From: a virus
IMG/VR virus record: IMGVR_UViG_3300005099_000012
Span: 1-36,349 of that record
Strand: one strand, 5' to 3'
Length of the DNA: 36,349 nucleotides
In this document: one piece after another, positions 1,040-36,349 of the stretch
How positions within the stretch are numbered: the first letter of the stretch is position 1
How the letters are laid out: each line of letters starts with the position of its first letter
Position numbers and translations under genes: made by a program
The notes under the pieces: model-generated
The model's database searches: none
Seen by the model: only the letters and a program-made list of their open reading frames with translations
What the model was told of the DNA's origin: nothing

Positions 1040-1252
1040 ATGAAAATATGTAAATGTATGAGATGTGGTGCAACAGGAAATTTTTATATATTTAGAGAAG
1101 CAAGTAGAGATAGTAGTAGTTTGAAATGTTATAGATGTGGATATAATAAAATAGAATGCTATGATGAAAGAGGATATGAAGATTTTGAAATTCCAGAATC
1201 CGTCAGACAAGGCTATAAATGGGCAAATTTAAAAATAGGTGAGACTACTTAA
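1040..1252 (+). CDS. Small zinc-ribbon protein
   Basis: This is a 70-residue protein with two Cys-X2-Cys knuckles, CMRCG near the N terminus and CYRCG about 26 residues later, the layout of a treble-clef or rubredoxin-like zinc ribbon. A possible TTG start at 1031 would overlap the upstream stop and add three residues; I prefer the ATG at 1040. The acidic C-terminal part (ECYDERGYEDFEIPESVRQGY) has no known motif. It is one of at least five small zinc ribbons in the window. Such proteins often bind nucleic acid or protein partners, but no target can be named. Confidence 0.7.
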   Translation: MKICKCMRCGATGNFYIFREASRDSSSLKCYRCGYNKIECYDERGYEDFEIPESVRQGYKWANLKIGETT

Positions 1253-1254
1253 AA

Positions 1255-1587
1255 GTGCAAGCTGATATTGAAATCTATAGAAGATGGATAGCAGAATTTA
1301 GACATATTTTTATAACTCACTCTCCCTATCCAGTGGGTGTTAGGTGGGCGAATTCAAAAAAACATCTTTATGAACGAATAAAGGACTATTTAGAATCTCA
1401 TCAAGATATGTTCCTTGAAGCAATTGTCAGGGAGGAGCGAGTAAAATTTAAGATTGGAAAGAAAAAATATGATTTGTTGATGGAAAGAAAATATTTTCAT
1501 CGTGGGAATTCAAGTCTTCCGATATTCAAAAAAGATGATAAGCGAATAAAGATAATTAGAAAAAAGAGATTTTTGGGATTAGAATGA
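1255..1587 (+). CDS. Hypothetical basic protein
   Basis: The start is GTG at 1255, two bases after the previous stop, with GGTGAG about 11 bases upstream as a possible ribosome site; the next in-frame Met is too far inside to be likely. The 110-residue product is basic, with Arg/Lys-rich stretches at the C terminus (KKDDKRIKIIRKKR) and an aromatic N-terminal half (IYRRWIAEFRHIF). It overlaps the start of the ribonucleotide reductase gene by four bases (ATGA), which suggests translational coupling. I do not recognise a family; the basic C terminus would fit nucleic-acid contact, but this is only suggestive. Confidence 0.65.
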   Translation: MQADIEIYRRWIAEFRHIFITHSPYPVGVRWANSKKHLYERIKDYLESHQDMFLEAIVREERVKFKIGKKKYDLLMERKYFHRGNSSLPIFKKDDKRIKIIRKKRFLGLE

Positions 1588-3257
1588 ATTTTAAAGAATT
1601 TTTAGATGGAAAAAGTATTGTTGATATAAATGCTAATTATTATCCTGATGTAGCAAATATTCGTAAACAGTTAGCTTCTTATGCAGAACTAAAATTCAAT
1701 GAACAATTAATAAGTGAATGGTTTGATAGAGGTAAGGAGATTCTATCATTACATGGAAATGAACTACATATACACGATTTGTCAAAACTTATTCTTTTAC
1801 CATACTGTTATTCAATTTCAACCGAGCCTATCATGGATCAGGGATTACCATATTATCCGCATTTCAAGAGTAAACCACCAAAGCGATTAGATTCGTTTAT
1901 AGCACAACTTATAGAATTTACTTCTTATGTAGCAAATCGTACACGAGGAGCGATAGGTATTCCTGACCTTATATTACCATTAACTTATTATGTCAAGAAA
2001 CAAAAACTAAATCTTACTGAACATCAATTTAGAAACGAATTACAAAGACTATTCTATTCATTTAATCAACACTTACGACAAGGTGCAGAATCACTATACA
2101 CTAATATTTCATTTTTCGATAGATTTTATTTAGAACACTTATTTAAAAACAATGTATGGGATTTAGATATAGAAGATTTAGAAGCGGTACAAAAATCAGT
2201 AATGAGATGGCATACTGAAGAAATAAGAGTTCAAATGCTACGATTTCCAGTAATAACAGTTGCATTAAAAACAAAGAATTCATATATACAAGATAATGAA
2301 TTTTTGAGGTTTGCACTTGAACAAAATATCGAACATACTATGTATAATTTCCTTGGTTTACCTCATCTTGATGCTATTGCTTCGTGTTGTAGACTTATAT
2401 CAAGTAAGAAGCCATTCTTTAATTCTTATGGTAGCGGGGGAGTACAAATAGGTAGCCATCAAGTTGTAAGTCTTAATCTACCTGGAATATTTATCAGACA
2501 TCAAGATGATTTCACTGAAAGAATAATAGAAGATTTAAGACTCGCACGCGAATTTCTTGATTGGCATAGAAAATTACTTAAGGAACATCAATATCTTGAC
2601 GCTACATTTGAACTTGGATTGCGGACGCTTAGAAGGATGTATTCCACAATAGGAATAATAGGTGTTTGGGATTTAAAAGAAGTAGCAGGTTATTCTTGGA
2701 ATGAAGTCGAAGAAGTTTTGAAAATCATAAGAAAAGAAATAGATTCGTGGGAAGGATTTTATAATTGTGAATTAGTGCCTGCTGAGTCTGCTGCTATTAC
2801 CCTTTATGAAGCTGACATGAAATTTGCACAAGAAACAAATTCACCATTTGCAGATTACTATGATTCAGGTAAGATGTACGCTAATCAAATTGTATCACCT
2901 TGGGAAAAGATGAATATCGGTAAACGAGTAAGAATCACAGGAAGACTATCTAAATATTTCGATGGCGGTCAGATGATGTTCATAAATGTTCCGAGTCCGT
3001 TCCAGAATATTCACCAGATGGAAAAAGTAGTAAAAGGTGTAATAAAGTTTGGAGTGCCCTATTTCGCATTCGATACATTTTTGTCTCGGTGTAAATCTCA
3101 TAATCATATAACTCTTGGAGATGCTCAGATGTGTCCTGTATGCGGTGACAAAGAACTATTTAAATTTAGAAGAATTGTAGGATATTTTGTAGAGCAATCA
3201 AACATGCATGAAAGGAGAACAAGAGACATTCCGCGAAGAGTAGTAGATGAAGGATGA
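1584..3257 (+). CDS. nrdD: Anaerobic (class III) ribonucleoside-triphosphate reductase, catalytic subunit
   Basis: The enzyme reduces ribonucleotides to deoxyribonucleotides with a glycyl radical and supplies DNA precursors without oxygen. The 557 residues show family landmarks in order: HIHDL (62-66) followed by PYC (Cys75); the SCCRL pair (Cys268/Cys269) expected to carry the thiyl-radical cysteine; VPAESAAITLYEAD (398-411); GGQMMFINV (461-469); and RIVGY (530-534), whose Gly533 is the likely radical site. The C-terminal zinc site seems to use Cys503, His506 or His508, Cys517 and Cys520, where the usual form has four cysteines. It overlaps both neighbours by four bases. The activating radical-SAM enzyme NrdG is not in this window and may come from elsewhere in the genome or from the host. 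The protein is shorter than many cellular NrdD proteins because it lacks an N-terminal ATP-cone. Confidence 0.93.
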   Translation: MNFKEFLDGKSIVDINANYYPDVANIRKQLASYAELKFNEQLISEWFDRGKEILSLHGNELHIHDLSKLILLPYCYSISTEPIMDQGLPYYPHFKSKPPKRLDSFIAQLIEFTSYVANRTRGAIGIPDLILPLTYYVKKQKLNLTEHQFRNELQRLFYSFNQHLRQGAESLYTNISFFDRFYLEHLFKNNVWDLDIEDLEAVQKSVMRWHTEEIRVQMLRFPVITVALKTKNSYIQDNEFLRFALEQNIEHTMYNFLGLPHLDAIASCCRLISSKKPFFNSYGSGGVQIGSHQVVSLNLPGIFIRHQDDFTERIIEDLRLAREFLDWHRKLLKEHQYLDATFELGLRTLRRMYSTIGIIGVWDLKEVAGYSWNEVEEVLKIIRKEIDSWEGFYNCELVPAESAAITLYEADMKFAQETNSPFADYYDSGKMYANQIVSPWEKMNIGKRVRITGRLSKYFDGGQMMFINVPSPFQNIHQMEKVVKGVIKFGVPYFAFDTFLSRCKSHNHITLGDAQMCPVCGDKELFKFRRIVGYFVEQSNMHERRTRDIPRRVVDEG

Positions 3258-3406
3258 TAATCCAGTGTAAACACTGTGGTAAAGTATTTGGTGTAATATT
3301 AAAAGAAAAAGAAAATGGAGTTACACTTAAGAAAATAAATCATTTAGAAATGGAATGTCCATATTGTGGTAATAAAATAATATGGAGAAGAAAAGATGCC
3401 ACATAA
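3254..3406 (+). CDS. Tiny zinc-ribbon protein
   Basis: A 50-residue frame starts at an ATG overlapping the reductase stop (ATGA). It has two knuckles, CKHCG at residue 5 and CPYCG at residue 35, separated by a charged beta-hairpin-like stretch. The same plan, with about 25-30 residues between knuckles, recurs at 6003-6131. Its C-terminal end overlaps the start of the next gene. The function is unknown; a structural zinc-binding adaptor is the simplest reading. Confidence 0.7.
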   Translation: MIIQCKHCGKVFGVILKEKENGVTLKKINHLEMECPYCGNKIIWRRKDAT

Positions 3407-3596
3407 AGAAAGTAATATAAAAATTAAAGAGAATCTTACTAAAGAAGATTTAACTACGATAGAAAACATCAAATGGCTTGATAACCAATTAGAAAGTCTT
3501 GTTAAAGAAGTACAAAAACGCTTTCAGGTGGATCGGGAACAAGCTTTATGGGAGATAGACATTCGACTTGTTTTTATGCATGACTTGCGAAGGTGA
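3396..3596 (+). CDS. Small helical protein, first copy of a tandem pair
   Basis: This is a 66-residue charged protein without cysteines or membrane segments. The segment QLESLVKEVQKRFQVDREQA followed by LWEI matches QLDGFIKEVQERFLLSYEEA followed by VWTI in the next gene, and the DNA is also visibly alike, so the two arose by duplication. The start ATG lies inside the end of the zinc-ribbon gene. The likely fold is two or three helices. The function is not recognised. Confidence 0.6.
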   Translation: MPHKESNIKIKENLTKEDLTTIENIKWLDNQLESLVKEVQKRFQVDREQALWEIDIRLVFMHDLRR

Positions 3597-4252: not shown

Positions 4253-5110
4253 ATGAAGATAGAAGAGGTTATAAAATATCCAAAATTAGGATATATAAGA
4301 GAATCTCCTTATGGTGGTAGAGAATTACTTGGTAAATTAATATTTTGGGAAGAAAAACGAGATGGTTCTAACATACGATGTTTCTTAGATGATAGTGATA
4401 ATATCCAATTCGGAAGTAGAAATAAAATACCTGCAAGTGATGATTTGTTAAAATCAATTGAAAATACAGGTTATATAGATACACTCAAAGAGGCACTTTA
4501 TACAGAGAAACATCAATGGAATCATGATATAATTATATTTTTTGAATTATTACAAAAAGGTAAAAGTCCTTCTCGTATAGAATATCATGAAAAAGATGAC
4601 ATTGCGGTATTCGATATTTATGATATGAAAGGAGGTTGGTGGAACTATACTAAAGTATATCAATTCTGTTATCAATGGAAGTTACCAGTAGTGAAATTAT
4701 GGGCAGTATCGTCTCATTCCGCTATCGAAGGCTTGGAAAAACAGATAGAAAAGATGCTTGAGAGAGCAAAGAGAGAAAACCGAGAAGGCGTAGTATTCAA
4801 GTCCTATAATGGTGATGAAGTTTATTTCTTCAAAGATAGATTAGATATTCCACATGAAAAGGATATAGAAATTAATATAGACAAAGACACTCCTAAATAT
4901 CCAGAACTACCTGAAGCAGAAGTTATGAACGAAATACAAAAAGTTTTAGATGAAATAGGAGCTGAACAATTTGGGGAAAAGAAAATAGCTATGCCTCTTA
5001 TAGCTCAATATGTAGCAGCCGAAGCGAAAGCGAGAATGTATTCTGTACCTAAAGGACTATATTCATATTATTTAAAGAAATTAGGAGAAATACAATATGG
5101 AAAAGAATAA
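4253..5110 (+). CDS. ATP-dependent RNA ligase (Rnl2-like nucleotidyltransferase)
   Basis: Joins RNA ends through a lysyl-AMP intermediate. The 285 residues show the covalent nucleotidyltransferase motifs in order: motif I KRDGSN with the likely adenylated Lys35; GSRNK (54-58), matching motif Ia; FFEL (96-99), motif III; FDIYD (120-124), motif IIIa; EGVVFK (178-183), motif IV; and FFKD (192-195), motif V. The C-terminal 80 residues are helical and lack an OB-fold signature, which argues for RNA ligase over DNA ligase. Viral RNA ligases often repair host-cleaved RNA; no tRNA or kinase-phosphatase partner is visible here. No clear ribosome site precedes the ATG, so the mRNA may be leaderless or have a short leader. 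It overlaps the next gene by 14 bases. Confidence 0.85.
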   Translation: MKIEEVIKYPKLGYIRESPYGGRELLGKLIFWEEKRDGSNIRCFLDDSDNIQFGSRNKIPASDDLLKSIENTGYIDTLKEALYTEKHQWNHDIIIFFELLQKGKSPSRIEYHEKDDIAVFDIYDMKGGWWNYTKVYQFCYQWKLPVVKLWAVSSHSAIEGLEKQIEKMLERAKRENREGVVFKSYNGDEVYFFKDRLDIPHEKDIEINIDKDTPKYPELPEAEVMNEIQKVLDEIGAEQFGEKKIAMPLIAQYVAAEAKARMYSVPKGLYSYYLKKLGEIQYGKE

Positions 5111-5445: not shown

Positions 5446-6006
5446 ATGCTATCGGATAGTGAAATTTTAGAAGAAATAGAAAAAGGAAATATAATAATAA
5501 AACCATTTAGAAAAGAACAATTAAATTCAAATAGCTATGATGTGCGATTAGGCGAGTATTATGCAGTAGAACTTAATGGTTTTCACATTGTATATCCTCT
5601 TGATGAACAGAGTGTAAAGAGACATTGGAAAATTAAAAAAACAAATAGTGTGATAGACATACGACAAGGAGAAACAATATTAGCACATACTCAAGAGATT
5701 ATTGGAGCTCGAAAAAATATAGCAACTAAGATGAATGCGAGAAGTTCAGTGGGAAGATTAGGAATATCAGTTTGTAAATGTGCAGGATTCGGTGATGTAG
5801 GTTATATAAGTAGATGGACAATGGAAATTACTAATCATTCACGATATGCTTGGATATCTCTTCCTGTGGGTATGCGAATAGCACAAATATCATTTTTTAG
5901 AACCGGTAAAGTATTAAATGAATACAAAGGAAAATATGGTCAAGGTGAATGGACGCCTGAAGATATGATACCGAAACTGTGGAAAGATAAAGATATAATA
6001 AAATGA
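5446..6006 (+). CDS. dcd: dCTP deaminase / dUTPase-family enzyme
   Basis: Members deaminate dCTP to dUTP, and some also hydrolyse dUTP, feeding dTMP synthesis. Landmarks in the 186 residues are NSYDVRLG (29-36); MNARSSVGRLGISV (96-109), which holds the substrate-binding Arg-Ser-Ser; AGFGDVGY (113-120), in place of the common AGFIDPGW; WTMEITNHS (124-132), with Glu127 at the catalytic glutamate position; and LPVGMRIAQISF (139-150). These support the trimeric Dcd fold and an intact active site. Whether it is mono- or bifunctional cannot be decided by eye. With NrdD it forms a deoxynucleotide-supply set in the left block. It overlaps the following zinc-ribbon gene by four bases. Confidence 0.88.
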   Translation: MLSDSEILEEIEKGNIIIKPFRKEQLNSNSYDVRLGEYYAVELNGFHIVYPLDEQSVKRHWKIKKTNSVIDIRQGETILAHTQEIIGARKNIATKMNARSSVGRLGISVCKCAGFGDVGYISRWTMEITNHSRYAWISLPVGMRIAQISFFRTGKVLNEYKGKYGQGEWTPEDMIPKLWKDKDIIK

Positions 6007-8028: not shown

Positions 8029-8769
8029 ATGATTGAAATTGAATTGGAAAATAAAATATTTAGAGATATGTTGGAAGCTATATATGCTATAAGAGATGAA
8101 GCGGCATTGAATTTTACTGATGGCGCTATATATTCAAGAGTTACTGATTATGGAAATGTGGTATTAGTAGAAGCTACTATACCAAATGATTTATTTAGTG
8201 GTTTATCTTCAGATGAGAATAGAGAAGTGGGTCTAAATATTGAAGACTTATTAATCTATACTAGGTTAGGTCCTTCAGCAGATGATATTAAAATCATGAT
8301 TGGCGATAAATTCAGAATGAAGACTGGTAATTACGAGATAGAAATGGATATTTTTGAAACTTCATACCTTAAAAGTAAAGCTAAAATTCCCGATGAATTT
8401 GAATGTAAATGTAATGTAAATATAAATGAAATTAGAAAGATTGCTCGTGCTGCCAGTCAAATCCAAAATGATGTATTGGTGTTTGAACTCAACAACACTC
8501 ATGAATTACTAACTATTTCTTCTGAAGGCGATAATGAAACTATCAGAGTTGATATACCAGTTAAAGATAAATCTAATGTAGATGTTTTTAATAAGTTAAA
8601 ATCAGCCTACTCTGTTGATTACATGCTTAAAATCATTAATGCTCTATACAATATCGGTATTTATGAAGTAAGTGTTGCATTTAAAGATGATTTCCCTATA
8701 AAAATGTCATGTCCTCTTCATGAACAAGGCAGCCTTACGTACTATATAGCGCCTCGTATTATTGACTAG
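8029..8769 (+). CDS. pcn: DNA polymerase sliding clamp (PCNA)
   Basis: The ring-shaped clamp holds replicative polymerase and other enzymes on DNA. At 246 residues it is the normal archaeal length. Typical features are the N-terminal FRDMLEAIYAIRDEAALNFT, the inter-domain stretch near residues 115-135, and the C-terminal VSVAFKDDFPIKMSC followed by LTYYIAPRI, where clamp clients normally dock. A virus with its own PCNA probably has an archaeal-type replication machinery encoded nearby or uses host polymerase. It is flanked on both sides by the AGACGC regulatory elements, which suggests separate control from its neighbours. A GGAGG ribosome site lies about 12 bases ahead of the ATG. Confidence 0.93.
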   Translation: MIEIELENKIFRDMLEAIYAIRDEAALNFTDGAIYSRVTDYGNVVLVEATIPNDLFSGLSSDENREVGLNIEDLLIYTRLGPSADDIKIMIGDKFRMKTGNYEIEMDIFETSYLKSKAKIPDEFECKCNVNINEIRKIARAASQIQNDVLVFELNNTHELLTISSEGDNETIRVDIPVKDKSNVDVFNKLKSAYSVDYMLKIINALYNIGIYEVSVAFKDDFPIKMSCPLHEQGSLTYYIAPRIID

Positions 8770-11936: not shown

Positions 11937-12152
11937 TTACTTATATTCTAATACTATTGTAGTTGATGATATATTACTACAATTTGAAATTTTTAATTGT
12001 ATACCATTAGTTGTCTCTATTACATGATTGAAGCTTTCATTGTATTTATAACCACCTGCACTACCTAAACTATAAGTCTTTTCATAAGTCCATCCATTTG
12101 CATCATCAATACTTACTTTTATATAACCACTTGAATTTGAAGTTAGTATCAT
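11937..12152 (-). CDS. C-terminal fibre domain in a separate frame
   Basis: This is a 71-residue beta-rich frame (SSGYIKVSIDDANGWTYEKT, then SFNHVIETTNGIQLKISNCS). It begins inside the 3' end of the upstream fibre gene, and its ATG has no ribosome site. The residues just before the overlap in the fibre protein (FNTTVTLTETY) read smoothly into this frame, whereas the fibre's own last residues (FKFKWLYKSKY) look like out-of-frame sequence. The natural product is probably a fusion with the upstream fibre through a frame change. It could instead be a separate small protein. Confidence 0.5.
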   Translation of the reverse strand: MILTSNSSGYIKVSIDDANGWTYEKTYSLGSAGGYKYNESFNHVIETTNGIQLKISNCSNISSTTIVLEYK

Positions 12153-13236
12153 AAGTTTCTGTAAGTGTTACTGTTGTATTGAATTGATACATTGTTGATA
12201 CTGTACCTGCACCTAATAAATATTTATCGCTTGATGATGGATTTTCAAGATGGAATGGAAGTAATCTATGCATACTTGGATTAATTCGTTCTGCACTTAT
12301 TTCAGTAAAGTATCCTTTTACAGCATATAATTCTTTCCATCTGTTACCCGATTCCCCTAAGGAAAGAGAATTATCTTGTATAGGCACAAGATTAGCATCA
12401 CCTATCCTTACCCAGCTTTTATCATATCCTCCCCATATCCAAATTCTTGTCCTTAAATTTCCTTTTCCATCTCGCGTTAGGAGGAAAATATCACTTGCAA
12501 ACTGAGGAGCATTTTCATCATATAATTCAATCGCACTCCCCTTCGTAGTTTGGAAATTACCACTATATAAAAACAATCCATCACTATCTACAATCACATC
12601 ACCCTGAATCTGAATTGATCCATTTATAGATGTGATCACATCAGTTTTTAACGATGTACTAAATATCCCTTCCGTCCCATAAATCCCCTTCCATCTATAA
12701 CTACTATTACCTAAATCTTGATAATTATCATCATAAGGTAATACATTAGATTCTCTAAATTTAATATCTACAAAATCAGCTTTACCGGGTATTTCAATAC
12801 GAGTAGATGCAGGACTATCATCACCAGGTGTACTAATTAGTATTTTACCGGGAAGACTTGAATTACATGAATACAATCTTATGGAAGGTGCATATATATC
12901 AAAATCAGAATATAACCACAACCCTACACTACTATTACCATATAATCGTGAATCTATTTGTAATGGTTTTTGACAAGTGAGCATAGCTTCTGTCATTGTA
13001 TCAATAGTATCAGTCTTTATTCCACTATTGCATTGCAGTTCGCCTGTCATTGGCTGTGAACCATCTCTCGATAATTTTATATTACTCAGATTACAAATAT
13101 CTGTTGTGTTTGCATTTATTAAAGTTTGATGATATGATATGTTACCTTCATTTGTTATGATATGGTCTCTTATAGCATTCATTCTTGCTGCATTAATAAC
13201 CGTTACATAATCCTTCCAAATCTCCAATTCAGCCAT
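12106..13236 (-). CDS. Tail fibre-like protein with repeated structural motifs
   Basis: The 376-residue protein has two copies of a phage-fibre signature: YQDLGNSSYRWKGIYGTEG (about 172-190) and NSLSLGESGNRWKELYAVKG (about 289-308). In such fibres, LG-S-RWK-LY repeats precede registration or chaperone-like segments. The N-terminal 60 residues resemble an attachment helix (EIWKDYVTVINAARMNAIRD). The C terminus probably continues in another frame at 11937-12152. It lies between the baseplate hub and tailspike genes, where host-contact fibres are expected. It ends before any complete chaperone domain. Confidence 0.72.
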   Translation of the reverse strand: MAELEIWKDYVTVINAARMNAIRDHIITNEGNISYHQTLINANTTDICNLSNIKLSRDGSQPMTGELQCNSGIKTDTIDTMTEAMLTCQKPLQIDSRLYGNSSVGLWLYSDFDIYAPSIRLYSCNSSLPGKILISTPGDDSPASTRIEIPGKADFVDIKFRESNVLPYDDNYQDLGNSSYRWKGIYGTEGIFSTSLKTDVITSINGSIQIQGDVIVDSDGLFLYSGNFQTTKGSAIELYDENAPQFASDIFLLTRDGKGNLRTRIWIWGGYDKSWVRIGDANLVPIQDNSLSLGESGNRWKELYAVKGYFTEISAERINPSMHRLLPFHLENPSSSDKYLLGAGTVSTMYQFNTTVTLTETYDTNFKFKWLYKSKY

Positions 13237-25557: not shown

Positions 25558-25856
25558 TTCTTCCTACTCGGATTTATATAAAAGAATTTTTCTTCATAAA
25601 AATGATAGCCACTTGAAGTACCATGTATTATAGCATAATGACCGCCCGGTTGGAAAGAAGTATTTGATAAATAAACATTAAGAGTGTATTCACCCGTGGC
25701 TTCATGATTCATGGGTTTATTTTCTATCACTTTATTATTATCAAAATCCACAATATCAAGATAAATTTCATCAGCATCTGCTAATTCATCATTAGTGTCA
25801 CGAACTTCTATTTTAAAACTAATACTATCTCCAATTTCGTATCTTTTCTCAACCAT
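25554..25856 (-). CDS. Beta-sandwich structural protein
   Basis: This is a 100-residue protein with an immunoglobulin-like or MG2-like strand pattern: YEIGDSISFKIEVRDTND, ADEIYLDIVDFDNNKVIE, TGEYTLNVYLSN and FQPGGHYAIIHG. Domains of this kind decorate phage heads, necks and baseplates. Its location between the large LamG protein and the connector suggests a neck or adhesin-related role. It starts just inside the end of the LamG gene. No cysteines or signal peptide are present. Confidence 0.5.
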   Translation of the reverse strand: MVEKRYEIGDSISFKIEVRDTNDELADADEIYLDIVDFDNNKVIENKPMNHEATGEYTLNVYLSNTSFQPGGHYAIIHGTSSGYHFYEEKFFYINPSRKK

Positions 25857-27684
25857 CTTGCTCGATAGTCTCTATATCAATACTAATATTAAATTTCTTA
25901 ATATCAATAGTTAAGTATTTTATAAGAGCTTGTGCCTTTTTTACTGTCGTTAATATTGGAGAAAACAATAAAGGTGCAGTTAATGAATACTCATAAATCA
26001 TTTGTAAGAGTGGAACAAATTCAGCATCAGTGGATACAGTAAGTGTAGCTACACCTTCATACTCGCTACTATAAGTATCTTTAAGAATGGCTGGAATAAT
26101 TGCTTCAATCATATTTTCAAGTGCCATTTTAGAAGATACATTAAGAGTATTACTAAAATTGATTATGAAAAGTATCGTGGATAAATAATTAAAGTAAAGA
26201 TTTATAGGAATATTTAAGTCTCTAATTAAACTACTACAAACATTTGCATCCAAATTCTGGATAACATGACTATCAATAACCGTTTTTATAATAGGTACAA
26301 ATGCATTATCAATTGTGAAAGAAAGAATATTTTGTTGTTCAAGAATTTCTGTAATTAAAGGATTAATTATAAGAGGAGTATCAAATCTTGAACTAATAAA
26401 ATTTTTATAATTTGATTTTAAACTTAAAGACGAATCAGCAGAAAGAATACTGGTAAGAGAAATGTATTGAGACCCTAATGCTAAAGGTATAACCACTGAA
26501 CCTACTACATAATATTTAGAAGTACTAAATAATAAAGAATTAATTAGTGTATTTTCATGAGAAAAAGCAAAATTTTCATGAACATCGAGTGATAATTCCA
26601 CGTTTAAAGGAGTAATAGCAGATAACCAACTTGGATAAGCATAATAATAGTTATCAGCATAAATTGATGGTTTAAGAATACCTATGAGACCTTTTTTTCG
26701 AGGAGAATAATAAACGGGATAAAGATAAAGCGGAACTAAAAGTGATTGAAGTAAAGATAATTGAAATACATCACTAAGTTTACTATCAAAAATTAAATTA
26801 AATGGAATTTTACAATAGTATTTCTTTTGATATGTATCTTTTAGTTTACAATCCTTTGAAATTGAATTTTTAGAAATTAATTTAGATGAACTTTTACAAT
26901 TAAGAGGTATTTCTATATTTAAAGGGGTAATTCCGGTTATTTTTAATAATTCTTTTTCCAACGGGTGATAGAACATGCAAAATGGGTCGGTGTATAATTG
27001 CCAGATTTCATCAGCAGCCAAAGGTCGATCATAAACCATGACAATAGAGATTATACCATCGAAATATCTTCCGGTGTGTTGTGGTTGATGTCCAATTTCA
27101 AAATAATCATTTGGAGTTTCAGGAGTAGCAGTAGAAGTTCCGCTCTGTTGCACTCCGTTTACATAAAAATATAGCGTTCCCGAGACCCTTGTCATAGCCA
27201 GATGATACCACTGTCCTGTTGAGGGAAAATCATACTGGCTATCTATCCAAGCCACGTTTCCGTATAGGGCAATAAAGCTTTGATCGTCAGAACCGAAACC
27301 CCAACCCCCACTGTCATCTCCGTTATATACAAACAATCTAATACCTGAAAGAACAGAAGGATTCACCCATGCTACCACAGAAAAATTATCAACGGTATCT
27401 GTAATCCTTCCTCCAGTAGCAACAAAATCATCACTTCCATCAAACTTCAAAGCAGAGCCGATTTTTTCTACTGTCCAACTCGGACGATACCCCGCTGTGC
27501 CACCACCAAGCGTGCCATGATTCCCATGACCGCTTAAATCATACACGATATTGCCACCACCTTCATTGAACAGCCAGCACCCGACAAGCCCATAAGCGAG
27601 TGGATGATATGGATTGAGAAGCACACCGTACATGGGCTTTTCATACGGATGCCACAGTCCTGCACGATGATGAGAATGAATCAT
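25849..27684 (-). CDS. LamG-domain protein with long beta-rich tail
   Basis: Residues about 25-235 form a concanavalin-like/LamG domain: LVGCWLFNEGGGNIVYDLSG, LKFDGSDDFV, NFSVVAWVNPS, WYHLAMTRVSGTLYFYVNG and a DGIISIVMVYDRPLAADEIW ending. Such domains bind glycans or proteins. Residues 245-611 have repeated short motifs (ITPLNIEIPL, ITPLNVELSL) and many Ser/Ile/Leu residues but no known fold. Base composition shifts inside the gene: the LamG part is clearly richer in G and C than the AT-rich remainder, hinting that the domain came from elsewhere. It lies in an adhesin-like set between head and tail genes and may form a head or neck appendage. Confidence 0.75.
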   Translation of the reverse strand: MIHSHHRAGLWHPYEKPMYGVLLNPYHPLAYGLVGCWLFNEGGGNIVYDLSGHGNHGTLGGGTAGYRPSWTVEKIGSALKFDGSDDFVATGGRITDTVDNFSVVAWVNPSVLSGIRLFVYNGDDSGGWGFGSDDQSFIALYGNVAWIDSQYDFPSTGQWYHLAMTRVSGTLYFYVNGVQQSGTSTATPETPNDYFEIGHQPQHTGRYFDGIISIVMVYDRPLAADEIWQLYTDPFCMFYHPLEKELLKITGITPLNIEIPLNCKSSSKLISKNSISKDCKLKDTYQKKYYCKIPFNLIFDSKLSDVFQLSLLQSLLVPLYLYPVYYSPRKKGLIGILKPSIYADNYYYAYPSWLSAITPLNVELSLDVHENFAFSHENTLINSLLFSTSKYYVVGSVVIPLALGSQYISLTSILSADSSLSLKSNYKNFISSRFDTPLIINPLITEILEQQNILSFTIDNAFVPIIKTVIDSHVIQNLDANVCSSLIRDLNIPINLYFNYLSTILFIINFSNTLNVSSKMALENMIEAIIPAILKDTYSSEYEGVATLTVSTDAEFVPLLQMIYEYSLTAPLLFSPILTTVKKAQALIKYLTIDIKKFNISIDIETIEQDG

Positions 27685-28814: not shown

Positions 28815-29777
28815 TTAAACAATAACAGTAGGCTCTGGGGAAACGTATTTGCGTATTCTAAAATTATCATAGTAAATATCAGTAGGGCTTCTGCTTCCAC
28901 CCGCAACATGTAAATTTCCTGAAGTATAGGTAGTGTCTGATGTAGTTAAGGTTTCTTCCCCGTTATTTATAACAACTTTTGTTTGTCCTGACGTTAATTG
29001 TATGCTAATACGAATCTCTGTATCCCAATAATTGTGAGTTCCCTCAGCTAAATTGTGCCACGAACCATCGTAGAGTCTGATGACAACATGTCCCGCGTCG
29101 TTTATCTGAAGCAAATAGCCATGCTCATGATAAGCGTGAACATCATTTTGAGCGTACCACGAAATTAAATTAGGTGGTGCAATACTCCCTGATATCTCAT
29201 GATTATACATTATGAAATCAGCGGCTTTGCCTGCCTCAAAAGCTTTTTCAGATCCATCGACTGCCGGGTCCTTGGCTAGTCCGCTTTTCTCTTCTTGGAT
29301 CTTTTTTATCTTCAGCCTTCCATCAGTCTCTTCAATTGAACCATAAGAGCCCGTAACTTTATCAACCCATTTGTTTGGGTCTTCACTATTATCATCAAAA
29401 TCATCGAAAAACTCGAAAACAGTAGAGCCATCACTCGCAGAACTGGCAGAAGGATTACCATAAATTATCCAAATATCTTTAATTCTATTTGCTGGGATAT
29501 ATGGTATTTTACACCATATAATTGCTTCAACTGAACTCCAAGATTCTATCCAATAAGGTAATTTTTTACCGGTATTATCACGAAATCTTATATCACTACC
29601 ATCTGGTTTACACTTTTCTAATGGGAAATTATCTTTAGTAAGCACTATCTTAACTTGATAATCTCTTAAATCTTGATTAACACCTTTAATATAAATTGGT
29701 CGTATGTAATTAAAATTACGATATGGTGAATGAGGATTCTTCAAAGGTAATGGATGTGGTAAAGAATATTTTGTCAT
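28815..29777 (-). CDS. DUF2341 and concanavalin-like domain protein
   Basis: I chose ATG 29777 (320 residues) over the TTG at 29792. Residues about 20-115 match DUF2341: IYIKGVNQDLRDYQVKIVLT, GSDIRFRDNTGKKLPYWIES, VEAIIWCKIPYIPANRIKDI and WIIYGNPSA. A beta-jelly-roll follows: FEFFDDFDDNSEDPNKWV, TDGRLKIKK, ISWYAQNDVHAYHEHGYLLQ and TDIYYDNFRIRKY. DUF2341 is common in secreted archaeal and bacterial surface proteins, usually beside carbohydrate-binding domains. On a virion it probably binds glycan. A T7 run precedes the start, perhaps an upstream terminator. Confidence 0.8.
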   Translation of the reverse strand: MTKYSLPHPLPLKNPHSPYRNFNYIRPIYIKGVNQDLRDYQVKIVLTKDNFPLEKCKPDGSDIRFRDNTGKKLPYWIESWSSVEAIIWCKIPYIPANRIKDIWIIYGNPSASSASDGSTVFEFFDDFDDNSEDPNKWVDKVTGSYGSIEETDGRLKIKKIQEEKSGLAKDPAVDGSEKAFEAGKAADFIMYNHEISGSIAPPNLISWYAQNDVHAYHEHGYLLQINDAGHVVIRLYDGSWHNLAEGTHNYWDTEIRISIQLTSGQTKVVINNGEETLTTSDTTYTSGNLHVAGGSRSPTDIYYDNFRIRKYVSPEPTVIV

Positions 29778-29817
29778 TCTAAATATAATCAAAAAAATAT
29801 GTTCTAATTATATATGA

Positions 29818-31118: not shown

Positions 31119-32060
31119 CTACGATGATAGATTAACAGCAGCCTGGAATAACCCTTTGACATCAAAACGCATAGCAACCTTTAGATTCATCAAATCGTTC
31201 CGTGGGTCATTAAACTTCTCAAGTGTGACGTCATTGTACATACCTATTGCAAGCACTCGTGAAGAATCGAATACTGTACCCTTTATCGTACCACCCCATG
31301 AACCATTTGAGTCTGTAACCGTAAGCAAATAAGGTTTTAAACCAAGTATCTTACCACCAAGTTCCTGTGTTCTAAAGTGACCTGTCTCACCTGAATATTC
31401 ATAAGTGAAATGCGGGTCTTTGAATATATCTCGCTCCATTTCTACCGTCATTAGTAGCGAATCAGCATTGTAACCAGCATTTTTGAGTGTAAATACCGCA
31501 TCAGCTATAGAATCTATAGGTTTAGTTGCATTATAGCCCTTAGTATCCATCGCCTGACTTAAAAGTGTATCAAGAGCCTTACGATTAAGTGTATTCTCCG
31601 CTTTCTTACCCTCCTCCCTTAACCGCATCTCTACAATATCGAACATGCTATCCTTGATAAGCTCCTCTTCAATCATTGCTATTTCACCATACTTTTTCGC
31701 ATCAAACCTAACCTCTGTATAACTCTCATTCTTTGCTACCGGATAGTCAGATGTAGGCGGTATAACTGGCAATACATCATTCAATCTTGTCTGATGAATA
31801 ATTACACGATAAGAAGGTGTGGGTAAATTCCACGTCATACCTTTGAAGACATCTCGCATTACTCGTACACTATCAACACCCTCAATAACTTTCTTTAATA
31901 CCTCTGTCCGTACAAGGTAACTAGCATTCACAGCCGAAGTCTCTATTAATTCATGATAACCCGCAGTTGCCTCATCAGCCTTAAGCGCATTTAGAGCCTT
32001 AGCACGTTCATCATCAGTCTTTGCATCTAAAACATTAAACAATTTACCTAACGTACTCAT
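31119..32060 (-). CDS. Major capsid protein (HK97 fold)
   Basis: The 313-residue protein has the order expected for HK97-type shells: a helical N-terminal arm (about 1-50), an extended loop and spine region with VRVMRDVFKGMTWNLPTPSY, the stretch EVRFDAKKYGEIAMIEEELI, a long helix (EGKKAENTLNRKALDTLLSQ), the A-domain part (DAVFTLKNAGYNADSLLMTV, then LGGKILGLKPYLLT), and a final LEKFNDPRNDLMNLKVAMRF, then FDVKGLFQAAVNL. The acidic scaffold-like and decoration-like genes precede it. There is no evident N-terminal cleavage site, although a protease is encoded nearby. Codon use here looks more GC-rich than in neighbours, as is common for highly expressed shell genes. Confidence 0.88.
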   Translation of the reverse strand: MSTLGKLFNVLDAKTDDERAKALNALKADEATAGYHELIETSAVNASYLVRTEVLKKVIEGVDSVRVMRDVFKGMTWNLPTPSYRVIIHQTRLNDVLPVIPPTSDYPVAKNESYTEVRFDAKKYGEIAMIEEELIKDSMFDIVEMRLREEGKKAENTLNRKALDTLLSQAMDTKGYNATKPIDSIADAVFTLKNAGYNADSLLMTVEMERDIFKDPHFTYEYSGETGHFRTQELGGKILGLKPYLLTVTDSNGSWGGTIKGTVFDSSRVLAIGMYNDVTLEKFNDPRNDLMNLKVAMRFDVKGLFQAAVNLSS

Positions 32061-33073: not shown

Positions 33074-33319
33074 TTATTTGGAGAGTGATATATCTATGTT
33101 AGAAATATGACGAATCCTATGCTCATCATCTTCATATTTAGAATCATAAATGTTCACACTCCCAATTCTATAACCATAGTCTCTCTCTGCTATTAATGCT
33201 ACATCAACTGCCTTCTTTATATTTGTGCCACGAGCCTTTAAAACACACTCCTTAGTTTTTAATATAGCATATATATAATTAGCAATGTTTTTTGTACCAA
33301 TTTTCAATTCTTGTTCCAT
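33074..33319 (-). CDS. albA: Alba-family chromatin protein
   Basis: Alba coats DNA and RNA in archaea. The 81 residues carry the family signature in order: IGTKNIANYIYAIL (cellular form IGKKPVMNYV), VLKARGTNIKKAVDVALIAE, and a final ISNIDISLSK strand. The first of the two lysines in the cellular IGKK motif, which contact DNA and can be acetylated, is Thr here; the second is kept. The loop between the third and fourth strands is short. The gene sits inside the head module between protease and scaffold, an unusual site for a DNA-binding protein; packaging with the genome is a possible reason. This is strong evidence for an archaeal host. Confidence 0.9.
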   Translation of the reverse strand: MEQELKIGTKNIANYIYAILKTKECVLKARGTNIKKAVDVALIAERDYGYRIGSVNIYDSKYEDDEHRIRHISNIDISLSK

Positions 33320-33355: not shown

Positions 33356-34279
33356 TTATTTACTCAAAATCTCAAGAGAAGTATGTGGATTAGCAGGTGC
33401 AGATGTTACTGATGTTTCAATATAATAAGTGTCTCCAAGAATTTCTGAAATACATCTATCTCTATTACAAACTTGTTTTACATTCTGAGCAGGATTTTTA
33501 ATACCAAACTTTATACTAAAACCACGAATTTCACCATCAAGTATCTTTTGTATTATTCTTTGTGCAACTGGAATGTCATTTCTTAATTTAAAAATTAAAT
33601 ATAACTTGTTACCTATAAGTGCACTTTTTCTATTTTTATATTCCATGAGCATCTCGCCGATACAAGTGGAAGTGTGATTGTCATACAAACCTCGAAATTT
33701 CTTAGGTGTTTTTTGAATAGACTCCCAAATTTCTCGTAATGCTTCTGGTGTTAATCTCTCATTTTCTAAATCTACTGAAGTATCACTTACATAACCACCA
33801 ATTACAAATTCACTACTCTTTTCAATTACCTCACATTCGATATCATCGGAATTACTTAATGACATTTTGTGAATGGTTTCTTGTGGCACTCGCTCGACTT
33901 TTAAACGATAAAGAGGATACCAGTCCGTATAACTCCCAAATGGTTCATCATGAATATGCAGATATTCTGGCGTATCATCATAAGGAATATCAAATACAGC
34001 AGAGAATTGACGATAAAGTCTAAATCTAACTGCTTCTTTAATTATCTCTGGCATATCGGCATCCCGCATAACCAAATCAACATCTGCACCCTTACCTTGA
34101 GTAGCAAGTGAACCAACTAAAAGAATAAAAGGGTCACGAATAAGAAATGATTTAAAAAACTTATCTACATCTTCAAATGTAAATCGAGGTGGGTCTCTAC
34201 CAGAAGGTGGAGTAGGGGCATAATCTTCTTCATCTTTCAATCCTTCATAACTGAGCTTCCTTATCTCTTCCTTTTTCAT
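33356..34279 (-). CDS. Nucleotidyltransferase-like domain fused to prohead protease
   Basis: The 307-residue protein appears to combine two domains. Residues about 45-130 have the nucleotidyltransferase pattern GSLATQGKGADVDLVMRD (Gly56-Ser57 and Asp66-x-Asp68). Residues about 155-307 match HK97/XkdF-type capsid maturation proteases: VIGGYVSDTSVDLENERLTP, YDNHTSTCIGEM with His202, ILDGEIRGFSIKFGI with Ser255, and a final TSVTSAPANPHTSLEIL. The protease trims scaffold and shell proteins. The role of the extra domain is unknown, and its second-strand aspartate is not clear, so it may be inactive. An insert with two cysteines (VCNRDRC) is present. The start lies inside the preceding small gene. 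Confidence 0.75.
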   Translation of the reverse strand: MKKEEIRKLSYEGLKDEEDYAPTPPSGRDPPRFTFEDVDKFFKSFLIRDPFILLVGSLATQGKGADVDLVMRDADMPEIIKEAVRFRLYRQFSAVFDIPYDDTPEYLHIHDEPFGSYTDWYPLYRLKVERVPQETIHKMSLSNSDDIECEVIEKSSEFVIGGYVSDTSVDLENERLTPEALREIWESIQKTPKKFRGLYDNHTSTCIGEMLMEYKNRKSALIGNKLYLIFKLRNDIPVAQRIIQKILDGEIRGFSIKFGIKNPAQNVKQVCNRDRCISEILGDTYYIETSVTSAPANPHTSLEILSK

Positions 34280-34385
34280 TACTTTCTTCTTCTATCACAT
34301 ATAAACTATAACAAAACGGACAATATGCAAAGATACTTTTAGGAATTCGTTTCAATTCAATATGACACAAAGGACACTCTTCCAT
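34245..34385 (-). CDS. Small zinc-ribbon protein
   Basis: This 46-residue frame has knuckles CPLC at residue 4 and CPFC at residue 22, followed by a charged tail (EEESNEKGRDKEAQL) that overlaps the start of the protease gene by about 35 bases. The T/A tract at 34407-34422 is upstream, with GAAGG as a weak ribosome site. It resembles the zinc ribbons of the left block, though it lies on the other strand and in the structural block. The function is unknown. Confidence 0.6.
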   Translation of the reverse strand: MEECPLCHIELKRIPKSIFAYCPFCYSLYVIEEESNEKGRDKEAQL

Positions 34386-34406
34386 GTTTAATATGCCTTC
34401 AGTTCG

Positions 34407-34422
34407 TTTTTTTTAAAAAAAA
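34407..34422 (-). terminator. T8/A8 tract, possible terminator after the sugar module
   Basis: On the minus strand the transaldolase-family gene ends at 34426 and is followed within a few bases by TTTTTTTT and AAAAAAAA. It separates the sugar module from the head module. It resembles the longer tract at 6511-6529. Confidence 0.4.
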
Positions 34423-34425
34423 TTG

Positions 34426-35121
34426 TTATAATCCACGAGAATTACAAGAATCCGAATGCCAGCCTTGAAGTCTCAGTATTTCAGCATCTTTTTTAAATGT
34501 TTCTGTTCCTTTATCAGTGAGGGGATGATAAAACATTTGTGCTAATATATTTGGACGAATTGTAATTGCATCCACGCCTATCATATAGGACTTAATAACA
34601 TGCTGAGGATGACGAATACTTGAAGACATTATTTTAGTCTCTTCGTTATTTACTATAAATGCAGATTTCATAATTTCAAGATTCTCAATAGCATCATGAC
34701 CAATATCATCAAGTCTACCTATTAATGGACAAATATAAGTGGATTTAACTAATGCTGCTAATAATGCTTGGTTTAGTGAATAAATTAAATGTAAATTTGT
34801 TTTGATACCGACAGAAAGTAATTTTTGAGTGAGTTTAAGTCCATCCTCAGAAAATGGTATCTTAAATACTAATTCCTTTTCTTCAAGGTCATCACATAAC
34901 CTAATCGCATTATCAAACATCTCAGTAGTATTAGCTCCACTTACTTCAAGATGAATCTCACCAGTAGGCATTCTTTTTCTTATTTCTCTTATCATCTGCT
35001 TAGTATCTGCTATTCCTGCTTCTCGCTGGAATGTAGGATTTGTAGTCACTCCTTGAATTATACCTAAATTATAGTAATATTCGATAGCATCAAAATCAAC
35101 GGAATCTAAAAATATTAACAT
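34426..35121 (-). CDS. Transaldolase / fructose-6-phosphate aldolase-family protein
   Basis: The 231-residue enzyme belongs to the short TalC/FSA group. Signs are MLIFLDSVDF, GVTTNPTFQREAG (24-36), IHLEVSG (57-63), LVFKIPFSEDGLK (84-96) with the likely Schiff-base Lys87, TNLHLIYSLNQALLAALV, PLIGRLDDIG, SSSIRHPQH, and a C-terminal HPLTDKGTETFKKD. The family moves or cleaves three-carbon units in sugar phosphates. Because it directly precedes the capsid block and follows KdsA, it may make the sugar phosphate used by that enzyme; the true substrate is unknown. The start lies 13 bases downstream of the KdsA stop. Confidence 0.85.
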   Translation of the reverse strand: MLIFLDSVDFDAIEYYYNLGIIQGVTTNPTFQREAGIADTKQMIREIRKRMPTGEIHLEVSGANTTEMFDNAIRLCDDLEEKELVFKIPFSEDGLKLTQKLLSVGIKTNLHLIYSLNQALLAALVKSTYICPLIGRLDDIGHDAIENLEIMKSAFIVNNEETKIMSSSIRHPQHVIKSYMIGVDAITIRPNILAQMFYHPLTDKGTETFKKDAEILRLQGWHSDSCNSRGL

Positions 35122-35134
35122 TTTATTAACCTAA

Positions 35135-35917
35135 TCAGTTATGCAAGGCATCCCAAACAGGCTTAACAACTTGTATCAGTTTCTCAAACTCTGAAAACGA
35201 TAACTGAGTAGCATTATCACATAATGCGTGCATAGGACTTGGATGACACTCAACAAAAATACCATCAACACCCGCGGCTATCATAGCTTTTGAAAGAGTA
35301 GGAATATATTGTTTCATGCCTCCTTGAAGAGAATGAGAAGGAATACCATATTTTCGGACTGTGTGACCGGTATCAAAATAAACAGGATAGCCAAACTGTT
35401 TTAGTTCGTAGATACTACGAGGATCAACAACCAAATCATGATAGCCAAACATTGTGCCTCGTTCTGTAATCATTATCTTATCATTCCTGCAACTCTTAAT
35501 TTTATTTATGATATATCCAACATCTTGAGGCGCTAAAAATTGTCCTTTCTTAATGTTTATTGGTTTATTAAAAGAAGCCATCCGTTTTGTCAATTCCGTT
35601 TGCATACAAAGAAAAGCAGGTAACTGAAAAATATCTATAATTTTTACTAAGTCAGTATCAAATTCACAGAGATTATGAAAATCCGTAAGGAGAGTTAAAT
35701 TGAATTCATCTTTTAGTTTCTCAAATATCCTAGTACTTTCTTCAATAGAAAGACCCGAAAAATACTCCATACTTGTTCGATTGTCTTTCTTAAAAGAAGA
35801 TTTATATATTAGATTGAAATCATATTTCTTACTCATCTTAACTAAGAATTCGGCTGTTTCTAATGAGATATTCTCAGACTCTAACACACAATTCCCAGCT
35901 ATAATATTTAGTTTCAT
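35135..35917 (-). CDS. kdsA: 3-deoxy-8-phosphooctulonate (KDO-8-P) synthase-like enzyme, metal-dependent type
   Basis: Condenses phosphoenolpyruvate with a five-carbon sugar phosphate (arabinose-5-phosphate in the classical enzyme) to make an eight-carbon sugar acid phosphate. The 260 residues match KdsA along their length: AGNCVLES, YKSSFKKDNRTS, LLTDFH, FQLPAFLCMQTELT, INIKKGQFLAPQDV, TERGTMFGYHDLVVDPRS, VYFDTGHTVRKYG and VECHPSP. The metal ligands of the metal-dependent class all appear: Cys10, His185, Glu223 and Asp234. KDO is a hallmark of bacterial lipopolysaccharide, so its presence in an archaeal virus is notable. The substrate could be a different pentose or tetrose phosphate. It is followed by a transaldolase-family gene and preceded by a cytidylyltransferase. 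Confidence 0.87.
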   Translation of the reverse strand: MKLNIIAGNCVLESENISLETAEFLVKMSKKYDFNLIYKSSFKKDNRTSMEYFSGLSIEESTRIFEKLKDEFNLTLLTDFHNLCEFDTDLVKIIDIFQLPAFLCMQTELTKRMASFNKPINIKKGQFLAPQDVGYIINKIKSCRNDKIMITERGTMFGYHDLVVDPRSIYELKQFGYPVYFDTGHTVRKYGIPSHSLQGGMKQYIPTLSKAMIAAGVDGIFVECHPSPMHALCDNATQLSFSEFEKLIQVVKPVWDALHN

Positions 35918-35918
35918 A

Positions 35919-36224
35919 TTACATTACACATGAAATATATTCTGCTATCCTTAATTCATCCATTGTATCAATATCCCAACCTTCAAGCATATCCACAATC
36001 TTAATATAGGGATTAAATCCAATCCTTCTTTTATATTTCTTAAACAACTCCTTTGAAAATATATAGAGTCCTGAAGTTTCTTGTATAATCGGTTTTAAAT
36101 CCTGAGTTCTTGGTACGTTATCTAACTCATAATTCAAAGGTTTACCATCAAACCAACAAAAAGAATAAAGTTCAGTAGCTAAAAATGCAGAATCGTAATC
36201 TCCTATCTCTATTTTATTAATCAT
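35919..36224 (-). CDS. C-terminal part of CMP-sugar-acid cytidylyltransferase (frame-split)
   Basis: The 101 residues match the second half of NeuA/KdsB-type enzymes: DYDSAFLATELYSFCWFDGK, PLNYELDNVPRTQDLKPIIQ, ETSGLYIFSKELF, RRIGFNPYIKIVD, EGWDIDTMDELRIAEYI. These enzymes transfer CMP to a sugar acid such as KDO or sialic acid. The N-terminal half is in a different frame directly upstream (36221-36349). The ATG used here overlaps the upstream TGA. The halves could be joined by a -1 shift, be two coupled chains, or reflect an indel. The pattern leans towards the acylneuraminate type, although the neighbour is KdsA. Confidence 0.75.
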   Translation of the reverse strand: MINKIEIGDYDSAFLATELYSFCWFDGKPLNYELDNVPRTQDLKPIIQETSGLYIFSKELFKKYKRRIGFNPYIKIVDMLEGWDIDTMDELRIAEYISCVM

Positions 36225-36349
36225 ATCCTGAACTGAATAGTCTCAGGCTTAATAAACGGAGATGTGCAGCTTAGAAATACAATGTAATCACCGTCTATAT
36301 CATCTATTATACTTTCAAGAATATCATTAAATGTAATATTATCTCCATC
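36221..36349 (-). CDS. CMP-sugar-acid cytidylyltransferase, upstream part (5' partial, frame-split)
   Basis: The frame runs from the window edge to TGA at 36221-36223. It encodes the middle of a cytidylyltransferase, including DGDYIVFLSCTSPFIKPETI, the TSPF segment typical of NeuA/KdsB enzymes. The following expected sequence (around DMINKIEIGDYDSAF) lies in the -1 frame, so the gene looks disrupted at ATATGATT. The true start and nucleotide-binding N terminus lie beyond the right edge. Confidence 0.65.
   Translation of the reverse strand, partial: DGDNITFNDILESIIDDIDGDYIVFLSCTSPFIKPETIQFRI

Follow-up and report, generated by a model that had tools for sequence, protein, structure and literature searches.

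Genes at the locus

We analysed a viral DNA of 36,349 bases (IMG/VR record IMGVR_UViG_3300005099_000012; the whole stretch is referred to as the window), which is classed as linear and is therefore probably a fragment. At its end, on the minus strand, a cytidylyltransferase fragment is followed in the direction of the head genes by a KdsA-like synthase, a class I aldolase of the transaldolase (TAL)/fructose-6-phosphate aldolase (FSA) family, a short open reading frame (ORF) with CPxC motifs, a prohead protease, an Alba-like protein and the capsid gene (Table 1). Judging from gene families and context, we find it fairly probable that this segment forms the last part of a viral cassette that would make and activate a 3-deoxy-2-ulosonic acid, similar to 3-deoxy-D-manno-octulosonic acid (KDO), for a glycan of the virion or of the host surface. 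A preliminary description of the window had proposed a virus-encoded module for ulosonic-acid synthesis and activation with cytidine monophosphate (CMP), and both the gene families and collinear relatives with the full gene set support it. The three consecutive genes it listed are not all complete: the KdsA-like and TAL genes are intact, with open frames, whereas only about the last two thirds of the cytidylyltransferase are present, as two out-of-frame pieces, the break lying about 120 bases from the contig end that cuts the gene. A promoter and terminator scan of positions 34200-36349 gave no excess (8 promoter-like signals against 12.5 expected, and 0 terminator-like).

Table 1. Features of the window, cassette genes first
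Feature	Position	Strand	Remarks
TAL/FSA-family class I aldolase	34426..35121	-	231 aa; PF00923, E 1.5e-40
KdsA-like 3-deoxy-ulosonate-phosphate synthase	35135..35917	-	260 aa; PF00793, E 1.3e-49
NeuA/KdsB-type cytidylyltransferase, C-terminal part	35919..36224	-	out of frame with upstream part; 91% aa identity to intact L003 gene
Same cytidylyltransferase, middle part	36221..36349	-	open at contig end
46-aa ORF, two CPxC motifs	34245..34385	-	between cassette and head protease
Prohead protease	33356..34279	-	PF04586; start of head-gene block right after cassette
Alba-like protein, archaeal indicator	33074..33319	-	E 1.2e-6, above cut-off
HK97-type major capsid protein	31119..32060	-	sole match in 50,697 phage records: Halorubrum tailed virus BLv36, 23.7%
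PCNA-like sliding clamp, archaeal indicator	8029..8769	+	PCNA_N, E 1.7e-7, above cut-off

The cassette in related contigs

A single-sequence KdsA scan of IMG/VR recovered two relatives, L002 (record G001, 66,547 bases) and L003 (record G002, 18,993 bases), whose KdsA proteins are 88 and 89% identical to the window copy. Most of the window runs collinear with the 66.5-kb record, at about 70-85% DNA identity per block; the cassette is therefore not a contig misjoin, and the bacterial misjoin that the preliminary description had named as a possible refutation falls away. From the 5' side, the genes of the relatives run as terminase, portal, a large ligase-like protein, a GT2 glycosyltransferase, a radical SAM-SPASM protein and ThyX. 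The next gene encodes a HAD-type hydrolase of 109-110 aa; it is followed by those for an MptE-like protein, the NeuA-like cytidylyltransferase and a methyltransferase, then by KdsA, by TAL with a fused pair of CBS domains, and by the prohead protease. A zinc alcohol dehydrogenase and a short-chain dehydrogenase/reductase (SDR) are inserted between the NeuA-like and methyltransferase genes in L002 only. Terminase and portal are annotated in G001, L003 holding just the portal end, and the domain names of the cassette genes are those of the L002 copies, the L003 copies being read by alignment or ORF order. Compared with its relatives, the window has no methyltransferase gene separating NeuA from KdsA, and its TAL has lost the CBS pair. 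G001 also encodes a GT4 enzyme and a two-part protein with an FkbM methyltransferase domain near the terminase. Thus, of the genes that the preliminary description had suggested might lie beyond the contig end, the relatives hold a HAD-type hydrolase and glycosyltransferases, together with the MptE-like protein and tailoring enzymes, while no SIS domain (the KdsD-type isomerase) was found in the 66.5-kb relative.

The cassette sits between the portal (PF04860)/terminase genes and the head protease/capsid genes, and from this position late expression, with an action on the virion or the dying host's envelope, seems probable. Between portal and cassette, L003 encodes a 788-aa protein (1079-3445) in which an ATP-dependent DNA ligase domain is accompanied by a long, unassigned N-terminal part. 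Scans for further viral members with KdsA, the TAL family, the NeuA-like protein, the terminase and the changed KdsA motifs Met105/Gly184 (described below) returned only the same two contigs, and a capsid scan recovered only the longer of them; a scan with the MptE-like protein brought in one further sequence, the distant MptE homologue L187.

Selection and gene exchange

Across the three pairs formed by the window, L002 and L003, the ratio of nonsynonymous to synonymous substitution rates (dN/dS) was 0.060, 0.066 and 0.070 for KdsA, and 0.115, 0.105 and 0.031 for the shared part of TAL. Both genes are under purifying selection, with values typical of working genes. These values bear on the idea that the window's virus is losing a cassette that no longer functions in it, the preliminary description having named inactive, decayed copies as a second possible refutation. 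The broken cytidylyltransferase frame and the missing methyltransferase gene and CBS pair would fit such decay; on the other hand, KdsA and TAL are open, with dN/dS of 0.06-0.12 against the relatives, and an intact 215-aa cytidylyltransferase is found in L003 (8756-9403), with 94% DNA identity to the window over the shared part. The frameshift could reflect true damage or faulty assembly, assembly errors being likely so near a contig end. We consider a decaying island very unlikely.

Regarding the class of this enzyme, the L002 copy matches CTP_transf_3 (PF02348, E 2e-16, above cut-off), and the window pieces alone gave no Pfam match. The best NCBIfam match of the NeuA-like proteins is PseF, below cut-off: the L003 copy scores 54.9 against a cut-off of 205.7 for PseF, and 21.1 against 155.2 for kdsB. 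Against solved structures, a profile built from the L002 and L003 copies finds cytidylyltransferases for sialic acid (1qwj, E 1.4e-12).

The cytidylyltransferases of the window (35919-36349) and L003 (8978-9402 for the shared part) differ by a synonymous divergence (dS) of 0.166, against 0.866 for KdsA of the same pair, whereas those of L002 (7050-7700) and L003 are only 50% identical as proteins (dS 1.98). The latter two contigs are 72% identical in the MptE-like protein and 95.5% identical in TAL-CBS (dS 0.27). Within the MptE-like gene the DNA identity falls from about 0.93 to about 0.6, and it stays mostly at 0.55-0.8 until the end of the cytidylyltransferase. The pattern indicates that the activating and putative transferring genes have been replaced between close viral lineages while KdsA and TAL were retained, an exchange that looks like surface-glycan diversification.

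The KdsA-like synthase

The KdsA-like ORF scores above the cut-off of the NCBIfam KDO-8-phosphate (KDO8P) synthase family NF003543 (288.7 bits, cut-off 242) and below that of TIGR01362 (277 bits, cut-off 314). We built an alignment of the viral trio and 163 further KdsAs, taken from 80 viral loci, 80 bacterial loci and three phage-collection records. The four metal ligands given in the preliminary description, Cys10, His185, Glu223 and Asp234, do stand in the ligand columns, the last three being present in 163/163 of the others and the Cys in 161/163; Lys39, Lys44, Asn46, Arg47, His81, Lys124 and Arg153 are kept as well. Other positions are replaced: Met105 stands for Arg (163/163, the viral rows being biased here because one of the two viral scan patterns admitted only Arg or Met, and the 80 cellular rows being drawn by other motifs), Arg188 for Gln (163/163), Asp45 for Ala, Gly184 for Thr and Tyr190 for Pro (162/163 each), and Asn9 for Pro (158/163), so that the KANR motif reads KDNR. 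Set against bacterial KdsA (PDB 1fwn, 6mdy), the viral protein thus shares the fold family, the metal ligands, the KxNR core and other catalytic-core residues, and departs from it at positions 105, 188, 45, 184 and 190. In Aquifex KdsA we take arabinose-5-phosphate to be contacted by the FLCRQ arginine and the HSVQ glutamine, and the KANR motif presumably distinguishes KDO8P synthases from 3-deoxy-D-arabino-heptulosonate-7-phosphate (DAHP) synthases.

As to a cellular source, a genome scan with 39-residue fragments confirmed nothing, the short query making it a weak test. A second scan confirmed 234 of 271 stretches, and the best 80 of these 234, which were the ones compared, are all titled as bacteria or bacterial metagenome-assembled genomes, with identities of at most 47%; a closer cellular relative than those listed might exist, because both scans were pattern-limited. 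In a KdsA tree, the viral trio lies on a long branch (0.99) and groups with the viral sequence L014 (support 0.89) and then with L030 (0.91), the deeper nodes being unsupported. In the phage contigs L015-L024 (for instance L019, 5950-7356), KdsA is fused to about 200 extra residues of unknown kind, for a total of 456-479 aa.

The TAL/FSA-family enzyme

The TalC/FSA-type enzyme of the preliminary description belongs to the TAL/FSA family, and it is the FSA type that does not hold. Its best PDB match is transaldolase 3r8r (E 2.7e-41), with E. coli FSA (1l6w) at only E 1.6e-18, and it scores 174.8 bits against the cut-off of 245.95 of the fructose-6-phosphate aldolase family TIGR00875. At position 59, where we take Gln versus Glu to tell FSA from transaldolase, the viral enzyme has Glu as in transaldolases and E. 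coli FSA has Gln. Set beside 13 TAL/FSA sequences of phage or plasmid origin, the viral enzyme keeps Asp6, Asn28, Lys87 (Schiff base), Arg136 and Ser168, and has four residues replaced: His111 for Thr (13/13), Cys131 for Ser (12/13) or Ala (1/13), Leu133 for Phe (12/13) or Tyr (1/13), and His57 for Ser (12/13) or Phe (1/13). Viral His111, Cys131 and Leu133 correspond to FSA-numbered positions 109, 129 and 131; the available part of one report names the FSA active-site residues as Asp6, Asn28, Gln59, Lys85, Thr109, Ala129 and Tyr131 (PMC13259622). With TalC/MipB transaldolases and FSA, the viral enzyme therefore has the Schiff-base lysine, Asp6 and Asn28 in common, and Glu59 with the transaldolases, yet it has neither the transaldolase pocket set Thr109, Ser129, Phe131 nor the Gln59 and Tyr131 of fructose-6-phosphate aldolase.

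We considered FSA-type synthesis of arabinose-5-phosphate as a substitute for the isomerase, a reaction that E. coli FsaA carries out from glycolaldehyde and glyceraldehyde-3-phosphate according to the accessible text of PMC9947464. Glu59 and Leu133 together argue against FSA-type chemistry, so this route is disfavoured and kept only as a possibility.

In the relatives, TAL is fused to a C-terminal CBS pair (L002 10792-11805, L003 10796-11806), whereas the TAL matches listed with annotation in the phage and plasmid searches are stand-alone fsa/talC genes. The CBS domains of KdsD are among the 40 matches of this pair (4o9k, 3.8e-8; 3k2v; 3fna) and are not the best, 9sr9 reaching 5.7e-17. We do not favour a KdsD-derived CBS pair with CMP-sugar feedback, as the KdsD matches exist but are unspecific.

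TAL could also be a central-metabolism auxiliary gene, as in cyanophages, feeding pentose-phosphate flux into nucleotides and standing next to KdsA by accident. TAL/FSA genes do occur in 502 phage records, mostly of cyanophages, the virus has an anaerobic ribonucleotide reductase and a dCTP deaminase, its relatives have ThyX, and Glu59 is transaldolase-like. However, KdsA and TAL are neighbours in all three viral contigs, His111, Cys131 and Leu133 displace residues of the 13 compared sequences, and the relatives carry the CBS fusion; we hold an incidental adjacency to be improbable.

The MptE-like protein

PF01973 was found above cut-off in two of the three MptE-like records; the NCBIfam family of the KDO transferase WaaZ gave a weak match (E 4e-5) that remained under its cut-off. 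A model from 19 sequences (mean pLDDT 66.9; an earlier two-sequence model, of mean pLDDT 35, was not used) aligned with the mammalian sialyltransferase ST6Gal1 (Z 9.4, root-mean-square deviation 4.0, 175 aligned), Maf transferase 5mu5 (Z 9.0, 4.2, 157 aligned), archaeal pterin pyrophosphokinase 8sd5 (Z 9.3, 4.8, 146 aligned) and the cell-division protein SteA (Z 9.6), and no row of this comparison was titled KDO transferase. Since the Z values of sialyltransferase, Maf and pyrophosphokinase are tied, the fold alone does not decide.

Gene context, on the other hand, leans towards a transferase role. MptE-like genes lie in 23/80 other viral KdsA loci, in 22/80 within 3 kb of KdsA, as compared with 0/80 bacterial loci within 3 kb; when viral loci are clustered at 80% KdsA identity, the gene is found in 12/42 clusters. 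Because of this recurrence we suggest that the MptE-like (PF01973-like) family may include KDO/ulosonate transferases. Rhodobacterales plasmids also pair MptE-like with NeuA-like genes in glycan clusters. Viral KdsA loci with PF01973-like genes include L031, L043, L051, L052, L054, L056 and L059.

Comparison with known systems and host

KdsA is common in viral contigs (at least 535 of 600 candidates). The KdsA loci compared, 80 viral and 80 bacterial, are in many cases short, so that absences are weak evidence; with this limit, a TAL gene was found in 0/80 of either set, a KdsD-type isomerase in 17/80 bacterial and 1/80 viral loci, and a cytidylyltransferase (own profile) in 12/80 viral and 8/80 bacterial loci. 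Among the loci searched, the KdsA-TAL pairing appears peculiar to this viral lineage.

Virus-encoded KDO pathways are already known in phages and giant viruses. A marine viral genome with T4-like structural genes has NeuA, KdsA and WaaG among genes for lipopolysaccharide (LPS) or capsule (PMC5332604, available part); it shares with our virus the NeuA-like and KdsA genes in one tailed-virus genome and a proposed alteration of the host surface, but the role proposed there is in bacterial LPS or capsule, and that part of the text names no TAL. The accessible portion of another report counts kdsA/kdsB among common glycan auxiliary genes (PMC10653327). For Cafeteria roenbergensis virus (CroV) and Fadolivirus, the available text predicts a KDO pathway with synthase and cytidylyltransferase genes, as here, a phosphatase where our relatives have a HAD-type candidate, and a CroV cytidylyltransferase that likewise groups with N-acylneuraminate cytidylyltransferases (PMC9614988). 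In contrast, these are giant eukaryotic viruses with an arabinose-5-phosphate isomerase domain and, in the same text, no TAL named, whereas ours is an HK97-type tailed virus with archaeal marks. The capsule-type cluster of Thalassovita gelatinovora plasmid pAge77 also brings together KdsA, SDR, MptE-like and NeuA-like genes, and differs in having a manno-octulosonate cytidylyltransferase and a KpsF/GutQ isomerase, with no TAL annotated within the 38-kb stretch. The open-access literature searched held no report of KdsA in an archaeal virus, which is weak evidence of absence. What is new here is the setting in an archaeal-marked tailed virus, the TAL-CBS fusion, the lack of an isomerase among the genes found, and the altered pockets.

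An archaeal host is supported, by inference only, by PCNA, Alba and a capsid protein whose sole match in the phage records is a Halorubrum tailed virus. The Alba and PCNA genes reported in the preliminary description are both present (Table 1), and the archaeal setting it drew from them stands to that extent, the capsid match being weak and single. The relative's terminase matched 13 phage records, all of Thermus or Meiothermus phages (23-27% among the 12 matches listed). ANME-1 archaea were considered as candidate hosts because ANME-1 viruses carry ThyX and NrdD (PMC9894754, available part); the auxiliary genes listed there for those viruses concern nucleotides, amino acids, carbon, phosphate and sulfur, and the main text of that report contains neither 'glycosyl' nor 'sugar' (PMC9894754).

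These data also allow us to weigh an ordinary KDO/LPS-type phage cassette, in which the host would be bacterial, KdsA would make KDO-8-phosphate to alter LPS or capsule, and the archaeal assignment would be wrong or incidental. The frequency of KdsA in viral contigs, the bacterial titles of the best 80 of 234 cellular relatives, and the capsule plasmids that pair NeuA-like with MptE-like genes, once also with KdsA, speak for it. It has to contend, however, with PCNA, Alba and a capsid whose sole phage-collection match is a haloarchaeal virus, with the absence of TAL from the compared loci and of a SIS domain from the 66.5-kb relative, with the KdsD-type isomerase present in 17/80 cellular loci, and with the substitution of invariant KdsA residues. 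We judge this alternative unlikely.

Proposed pathway

Returning to the ulosonic-acid cassette, the reactions, acceptor, product, timing and glycan target are what we infer from gene content and order, selection and active-site residues. Mechanistically, the TAL-family class I aldolase would make or reshape a phosphorylated aldose acceptor, with the CBS pair, where present, as a regulatory sensor; the KdsA-like metalloenzyme would condense this acceptor with phosphoenolpyruvate; the small HAD protein would take off the phosphate; the NeuA-like enzyme would form the CMP-sugar; and the MptE-like protein, perhaps with the viral GT2/GT4 enzymes, would link the sugar to a glycan. The methyltransferase, alcohol dehydrogenase and SDR could tailor the sugar in some strains. 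The product would probably be a CMP-activated ulosonic acid, and perhaps not KDO.

Several observations weigh against this pathway. The HAD assignment is weak (BT0820-like, E 1.7e-5, below cut-off), the NeuA-like protein stays below the NCBIfam cut-offs of the KDO, sialic acid and pseudaminic acid families, and the best Foldseek match of the MptE-like model is the pterin pyrophosphokinase, at a low TM-score of 0.40. The CBS pair is not specifically KdsD-like, and the KdsA pocket changes could signal an altogether different reaction. In the window's own virus the module is damaged, with the cytidylyltransferase frame broken and the CBS pair and methyltransferase gone: the genes for phosphate removal and transfer lie beyond the contig, CMP activation is interrupted by the frameshift, and this copy may be partly defective.

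In both carbon-joining enzymes the residues of the chemistry are kept and those of the pocket are changed, with the genes under purifying selection; the sugar made may thus differ from ordinary KDO. The new product that the preliminary description had thought possible gains support in this respect, the pocket residues of both C-C bond-forming enzymes being unlike those of every compared homologue. We tentatively raise the possibility, which is less likely than not, of an undescribed sugar acid: TAL and KdsA would have been re-specialised together, TAL replacing KdsD with an acceptor other than arabinose-5-phosphate and KdsA rebuilding its phosphate/hydroxyl pocket, while the CBS pair would sense the CMP-sugar, and viral lineages would diversify the surface sugar by trading genes for the cytidylyltransferase and for tailoring. 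From the paired active-site changes comes a concrete prediction that can be tested: the acceptor should be a new one, and the sugar may be new as well. It is chiefly in bacteria and eukaryotes that ulosonic acids, KDO and sialic acids among them, are known as surface signatures; an archaeal-marked virus that encodes their synthesis, activation and probable transfer suggests that such sugars may figure in archaeal virus-host recognition.

Other features of the window

On the plus-strand side, the window encodes an anaerobic ribonucleotide reductase (1584-3257), an RNA ligase (4253-5110) and a dCTP deaminase (5446-6006). An ORF at 3-383, open at the contig start, matches Disaggr_assoc and contains a repeat which, on visual inspection, resembles dockerin; a glycan enzyme that is secreted or sits on a surface may be encoded here. 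In the virion region, proteins with Laminin_G_3 and DUF2341 domains lie at 25849-27684 and 28815-29792, with look-alike paralogues, judged by eye, in L002 (15983-17059 and 18069-19557). A tail-region protein (12106-13236) shows weak similarity over part of its length to the catalytic domain of endosialidases (PF12219, E 4e-6), which is of interest given the sugar-acid genes in the same virus.

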